Origin: Alistipes sp.
GTDB taxonomy: Bacteria > Bacteroidota > Bacteroidia > Bacteroidales > Rikenellaceae
Direction: 5' to 3'
Length of the DNA: 43,518 nt
NCBI GenBank assembly: GCA_017935185.1
Contig: JAGBIC010000042.1
Span: 1 to 43,518 of the forward strand
Of this stretch, positions 7,402-9,621 are shown piece by piece (position 1 is the stretch's first letter; every line of letters begins with the position of its first letter). Under the pieces are notes generated by a model. That model saw only the letters and a list, made by a program, of their open reading frames with translations. It was not told the DNA's origin and ran no database searches. The translations under genes were made by a program, and so were the position numbers.

Positions 7402-9621
7402 ATGGAAGAAAACAAATTGTACAACGCAGTACAAAAGACGATTACGCTTGCTGACGGCCGCGAGATCACTATCGAGACCGGCAAGTTGGCAAAGCAGGCA
7501 GACGGCTCGGTTGTAGTTAAGATGGGCGACACCATGTTGCTCGCCACCGTAGTTGCTGCCAAGGATGCAAAGGAAGGAACAGATTTTATGCCGCTTCAGG
7601 TGGAGTACAAGGAGAAGTTCGCATCATGCGGTCGCTTCCCCGGTGGCTTCATGAAGCGCGAAGGCAAGGCCAGCGATGCCGAGGTTTTGGTGGCTCGACT
7701 CATCGACCGCGCATTGCGCCCCTTGTTCCCATCGGATTATCACGCCGATGTTTTCGTAACAGTGAACCTGATTTCAGCCGACAAGGATATTCAGCCCGAT
7801 GCATTGGCAGGTCTGGCAGCATCAGCCGCCCTGGCCGTTTCGGATATTCCTTTCGGTGGCCCTATTTCAGAGGTTCGCGTTGCCCGCATCAATGGTGAGT
7901 ATGTCATCAACCCCAACTTCTCGGAGATGGCAAATGTCGATCTCGACATCATGGTTGGTGGTACAATCGACAACATCTTGATGGTTGAGGGTGAGATGAA
8001 CGAGGTTTCAGAGGATGTTATGCTCGGAGCCATCAAGTTCGCCCATGAAGAGATCAAGAAGCACTGTGCAGTTCAGATCGAGCTTTCAAAAGAGCTTGGC
8101 AAGGACGTTAAGCGCACATATTGCCACGAGAATAACGACGAGGAGCTTCGCCAGCAGATTATCGCCGAGCTCTACGACAAGGCTTATGCTATCGCCACAA
8201 GTGGCACAGCAAAGCACGAGCGCTCGGAGGCATTCGAGGCTTTGGAGGCCGAGTTCGCAGCCCGCTTCACCGAGGAGGAGTTGGAGGAGAAGGCTCCCCT
8301 TATCCACAAATATTTCCACGATGATGTTCAGAAGAAGGCCATGCGCAACATGATCCTCGACGAGGGTAAGCGTTTGGATGGTCGCCGCACCGATGAGATT
8401 CGTCCTATCTGGTGTGAGGTTGGCTACCTGCCTGCAGCACACGGCTCTGCAATCTTCACTCGTGGTGAGACACAGTCGCTGACCACAGTTACATTGGGAA
8501 CAAAGCTCGACGAGAAGATGATTGACGAGGTTTTGGTTCAGGGTTCAGAGAAGTTTACCCTGCACTACAACTTCCCTCCCTTCTCAACAGGCGAGGCCCG
8601 TCCTGCTCGCGGCGTAAGCCGTCGTGAGATTGGTCACGGTCACTTGGCATGGCGCGCATTGAAGCCCATGATTCCCACAGGCGAGGAGATGCCCTACGCA
8701 TTGCGTGTTGTATCAGATATTTTGGAGTCTAACGGTTCTTCTTCAATGGCTACTGTTTGTGCAGGTACATTGGCGCTTATGGATGCCGGCGTTAAGATCA
8801 AGAAACCCGTATCAGGTATCGCCATGGGTCTTATCTCTGACTCTGCAACAGGCCGTTGGGCTGTGTTGTCTGACATCTTGGGTGATTAGGATCACTTGGG
8901 TGACATGGACTTCAAGGTTACAGGTACTGCCGACGGTATCACTGCCACACAGATGGATATCAAGGTTGATGGCTTGTCATACGAGGTTTTGGCAAAGGCT
9001 TTGGAGCAGGCTCGCGTAGGCCGCATGCACATCTTGGGTAAGATTACCGACACCATCGCCGAGCCCCGTGAGGACTACCGCGAGTTTGTGCCCCGCATCG
9101 TTCAGATTCAGATTCCGAAGGACTTCATCGGTGCTGTTATCGGCCCGAGCGGCAAGGTTATTCAGGAGATTCAGAAGACCACCAATACTACTATCACCAT
9201 CACCGAGAATGACGAGTGCGGCATAGTAGACATCTTCGGTATTGACAAGGAGGCTTTGGATGGCGCACTTTCGCGCATCAAGGCTATCGTTGCAGTTCCC
9301 GAGGTTGGTGAGGTATACAACGGCACAATCAAGAGCATTGTAGCATTTGGTGCTTTCGTTGAGATTCTTCCAGGCAAAGAGGCTCTGCTCCACATCTCGG
9401 AGATTGACTACAAGCGTTTCGAGACTATGGAGGAGACCGGTCTTAAGGAGGGTGACACCATCGAGGTTAAACTCATCGGCATCGATGCCAAGACCAACAA
9501 ATACAAGCTCTCTCGCAAGGCTCTGTTGCCCAAGCCCGAGGGTTGGGTAGAGCGAGAGCGTAAGCCACGTGGCGAGGGTCGTCCCCGCCGTGACAGAGGT
9601 GAGCGCCACGAAAAGAAATAA
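7402..9621 (+). pseudogene. pnp: Polyribonucleotide nucleotidyltransferase, interrupted by in-frame TAG
   Basis: PNPase degrades RNA 3' to 5' with phosphate and also acts in the degradosome. The reading frame spans 740 codons, but codon 496 (8887-8889) is TAG. It lies inside the near-invariant active-site block [20 protein letters not shown], where the family has Glu (GAG, one G-to-T change). Both sides are intact and in the same frame. Upstream are two RNase PH-like regions, with FCRFPGGF-type and [13 protein letters not shown] blocks. Downstream are a KH domain with the GPSGKVIQ loop (about residue 580), an S1 domain ([20 protein letters not shown]) and a basic tail. The truncated product would lack metal-binding aspartates, KH and S1. 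TAG is a normal stop for several genes here, so recoding is unlikely. A sequencing error or a real loss mutation cannot be separated from this read-out. Confidence 0.93.

Follow-up and report, generated by a model that had tools for sequence, protein, structure and literature searches.

An in-frame TAG in the pnp gene of an Alistipes metagenome draft, probably a single-base consensus error

In the stretch of Alistipes DNA analysed here (43,518 nucleotides, hereafter the window), the pnp gene for polyribonucleotide nucleotidyltransferase (PNPase) is broken by one in-frame TAG. Comparison with related sequences suggests that this TAG is probably a single-base consensus error in a fragmented metagenome draft rather than a real recent mutation, a reading that is favoured because all good genomes of the genus have pnp and the gene shows no decay after the stop. 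In all other respects this is an ordinary PNPase gene, and the TAG does not look like new biology but like a sequencing or assembly error or, failing that, a private mutation of very recent origin.

The interrupted pnp frame

The window corresponds to contig C12 of draft genome G000, which comprises 1,807,211 bases (1.81 Mb) in 49 contigs and is 75% complete. The named genomes closest to it are metagenome genomes of Alistipes and Rikenellaceae, mainly from animal gut, and its assignment to Alistipes follows from these. On the plus strand, positions 7402-9621 form a single frame of 740 codons, including the terminal TAA, and re-reading it agrees with the original prediction of an intact frame with one exception, the sole internal stop being the TAG at 8887-8889 (codon 496). 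The copy in the genome assembly (G000:C12) has identical bases at the TAG but, coming from the same assembly, gives no independent confirmation.

The gene was assigned from its frame and from domain and structure alignments. Its 5' open part (7402-8889, plus strand) encodes 495 residues with the RNase PH domains and the PNPase helical domain, ends within the second RNase PH core and matches the family model TIGR03591 (polynuc_phos) with 662.8 bits over model positions 3-481 of 689. The 3' part (8890-9621, plus strand), which is open and conserved, carries the KH and S1 domains, and the 241-residue piece read from 8896 matches the same model with 249.3 bits over positions 485-688 of 689. Because the two pieces match TIGR03591 in order, they represent one interrupted PNPase, in which the domain order of the family (RNase PH domains, PNPase helical domain, KH, S1) is present when the pieces are scored separately. 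Like other PNPases (TIGR03591/NF008805, E. coli Pnp), the gene matches the same models in order, and its product is 94.5% identical over its length to the protein of the relative genome G015; unlike them, it has one in-frame TAG at the position corresponding to E. coli residue 485.

This position follows from the alignment with the E. coli PNPase structure 3h1c, in which codon 495 pairs with residue 484, placing the TAG at 485, directly before D486. According to PMC2723993, the catalytic metal in E. coli PNPase is bound by D486, D492, and K494. The TAG precedes the residues aligned with these three (positions 497, 503, and 505, all in the 3' part), and an uninterrupted frame through the metal-site residues is thus absent. 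The domain search and the 3h1c alignment uphold the predicted loss of the metal-binding aspartates, the KH domain, and the S1 domain, and the 495-residue product, without metal site, KH, and S1, should be inactive.

Both neighboring genes, likewise on the plus strand, are intact: directly upstream lies a conserved gene (6919-7320) whose last 90 residues are 100% identical to a 90-residue ORF of a relative, and directly downstream a gene for a TPR-repeat protein (9663-11411). The gene might be dispensable if the genome held another pnp, but this idea was rejected, as no second copy was found in the draft: the 5' piece has one match there, the 3' piece has four and, among the matches listed, two others fall within an S1 protein gene at 19281-21071. 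The plasmid records searched gave no match.

Codon 496 and the 3' part in relatives

The original prediction had expected Glu at codon 496 and had pointed to close relatives as the comparison to make, and Glu is indeed what they have, in 108 of 108 readable loci. These come from 109 relative loci (L003-L111; 80 + 29, two sets that partly repeat the same genomes), one of which (L081) stops short of codon 496 and was left out. GAG or GAA was read with a first motif in 97 loci and with a looser motif in 10 more; in L036 the Glu codon lies within the final bases and was read by eye. When 268 family genomes were searched for the exact motif carrying TAA or TAG at the site (a pattern that does not cover TGA), one matched, the genome studied here.

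The gene itself is widely retained. At E ≤ 1e-100, pnp is found in 161 of 180 genus genomes, including all 70 with a completeness of ≥90% and a contamination of ≤5%; every one of the 19 genomes lacking such a match is less than 90% complete. Among the matches listed, the stronger ones from the 180 genomes, an internal pnp stop occurs in the present genome only. A first search of relatives had also returned stops within the match in G012 (TAA), G038 (TAG), G043 (TAA), and G045 (TAA), but these were rejected as natural gene ends past the S1 domain, all four having Glu at the site.

Downstream of the TAG, we saw no sign of decay. Between this pnp and those of six close relatives, dN/dS is 0.014-0.030 for the 5' part and 0.065-0.081 for the 3' part, and the 3' part compared among the same six relatives gives 0.033-0.104. 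Relative to these six, the gene carries four private amino-acid changes, one in the 5' part and three in the 3' part, and none affects a metal-site residue. The 3' part is therefore as conserved as in relatives with an intact gene, so that any loss of function must be either very recent or only apparent.

Consensus error or recent mutation

The mechanism that we consider probable is a simple one: a single wrong base in the consensus would turn a Glu codon into TAG, and the living cells would then very probably carry an intact pnp. The uniform Glu at the site, the restriction of the stop motif to one family genome, and a draft that is both fragmented and incomplete all support an error; in such a draft, one private substitution is ordinary. 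Spurious pseudogenes produced by assembly error are described in PMC11017572, with figures that refer to isolates, not metagenomes; there, too, an otherwise conserved gene carries an internal stop in one draft genome. For pnp, the error is proposed from the consensus of a metagenome draft.

When 121 ORFs of G015 were matched to the draft (49,434 aligned residues), four stops appeared: the pnp TAG, the terminal TAA of pnp, a TAG within a leader that did not align, and a TGA in a 154-residue ORF that, with 56% identity and no Pfam match, was taken not to be a real gene. Neither an excess of disrupted genes nor another convincing mid-gene stop was seen in the 121 matched ORFs. The error rate of the draft thus does not appear to be high, although one error suffices. 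Moreover, a G-to-T change is also seen at three other private sites in pnp, all third codon positions, so the change that yields the TAG is not of an odd type, and this counts against an error.

These last observations leave an appreciable, if clearly smaller, chance that the TAG is a genuine and very recent nonsense mutation in the strain or population, leaving an inactive PNPase of 495 residues and RNA decay to other nucleases. One substitution would be enough, E. coli pnp mutants are viable, and the compared part of the assembly, with no other convincing mid-gene stop among its matched ORFs, fits an isolated mutation as well. On the other hand, the retention of pnp in all the good genus genomes, a 3' part free of relaxed selection, and a stop pattern seen in no other family genome all speak against it. 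Among the papers that a literature search listed for readthrough or nonsense mutation of pnp, or for pnp in transposon screens of Bacteroides, none was on point. Should the stop be real and fixed, it would make this gut commensal naturally PNPase-deficient and offer a convenient test of the enzyme's dispensability; should it be a consensus error, as we think probable, it is a caution that one base can be enough to make a gene in a metagenome draft look conspicuously broken. The original prediction had listed a real null mutation, a sequencing or assembly error, and rare readthrough, a list that our analysis supports, with the error and the very recent mutation remaining.

TAG as a stop codon and the missing prfA gene

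Recoding or readthrough of the TAG is unlikely. TAG is a terminator in this genome. We compared the ends of ORFs between 0.46 Mb of the draft and 0.81 Mb of G015: of 117 ORFs matched at ≥50% identity, 102 agree with the G015 C terminus to within 8 residues for both partners. TAG closes 28 of these 102, and 24 of their 102 partners in G015. Three TAG-ended ORFs fall outside this set, namely the pnp 5' piece, the S41 protease, and one ORF that is unaligned over its last 9 residues. Within the window, ispG, rsgA, and the genes for the S41 protease, a LacZ4-type beta-glucuronidase, a calcineurin-like phosphoesterase, and a DUF697 protein all end in TAG, as had been claimed. Of the 13 TAG-ended ORFs in the window other than pnp, eight end at most 5 residues from the relative's end, one (the S41 protease) ends 18 residues earlier, and four have no relative among the stretches compared. 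The S41 protease ORF (37289-38956), shorter by these 18 residues than its relative, looks like a case of ordinary end variation. No tRNA with a CTA anticodon is present among the 35 tRNAs found in the 75%-complete draft. With TAG an ordinary terminator, no TAG-reading tRNA among the 35, and the stop confined to this draft, reassignment is as unlikely as originally judged.

Readthrough or suppression of a real TAG at a useful rate, yielding full-length PNPase, would account for the conserved 3' part, and it gains some interest from release factor RF1 (prfA), which scores above cut-off in 58 of 61 genus genomes (the present one counted among the 61) and was not found in this draft. Even so, we regard it as improbable. 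No relative that was read carries the stop, and there is thus no conserved site of the kind expected for programmed readthrough; the frequent use of TAG as a natural end and the tRNA set, though taken from an incomplete draft, also speak against it, and the RF1 gap coincides with a contig end in a repeat (see below). More doubtful still is a split PNPase, in which the 495-residue piece and a C-terminal piece translated anew from the ATG at 8905 would act as two chains. An in-frame ATG does start 15 bases past the stop, but the stop cuts the catalytic motif, so that the second chain would be without the first of the metal-binding aspartates, and the matches listed in the genus search contain no second genome with an interrupted pnp.

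RF1 is the factor that reads TAG, and genomes that have reassigned TAG or lack RF1 are known. The present genome resembles them in that prfA was not found in the draft and one conserved gene has an in-frame TAG, but it differs in that TAG widely terminates, no CTA tRNA was found, and prfA probably lies past a contig break. A real loss of RF1 in this lineage, with TAG just beginning to be read as an amino acid and pnp the first conserved gene to carry one, is hardly credible. The sole RF1 match in the draft is below cut-off and overlaps the gene for RF2, which is present. Among the other genus genomes, G013 has RF1 in two pieces, and G069 has only a 38-position RF1 fragment at a contig edge.

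The gap is probably one of assembly, caused by a contig that ends in a repeat just upstream of the position that prfA has in a relative. In G015, the prfA ORF (L200, 9414-10502) begins 35 bases past a repeat of ∼90 bases (L200, 9288-9379), which is itself preceded by a phosphotransferase-family ORF (Pfam APH). Contig C26 of our draft carries the same phosphotransferase-family ORF at 365-1419, and its first 2,919 bases are collinear with G015 through this ORF up to the contig end (base 1), which lies within the same repeat. Repeats of this kind break assemblies, and the copy in C26 (L206, 1-59) has further matches at several other places in the genome. Because C26 ends in the repeat that adjoins prfA in G015, the gene was most likely left out of the assembly, and an RF1-less genome is unlikely. 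This argument, drawn from contig ends and collinearity, is strong but not proof, since the repeat is multicopy and the neighbors of prfA differ between genomes. The prfA region of another genome (G001) gives only scattered matches in the draft, and the prfA neighborhood differs among G015, G014, and G010 (loci L200, L201, and L203), indicating that gene order is fluid there.
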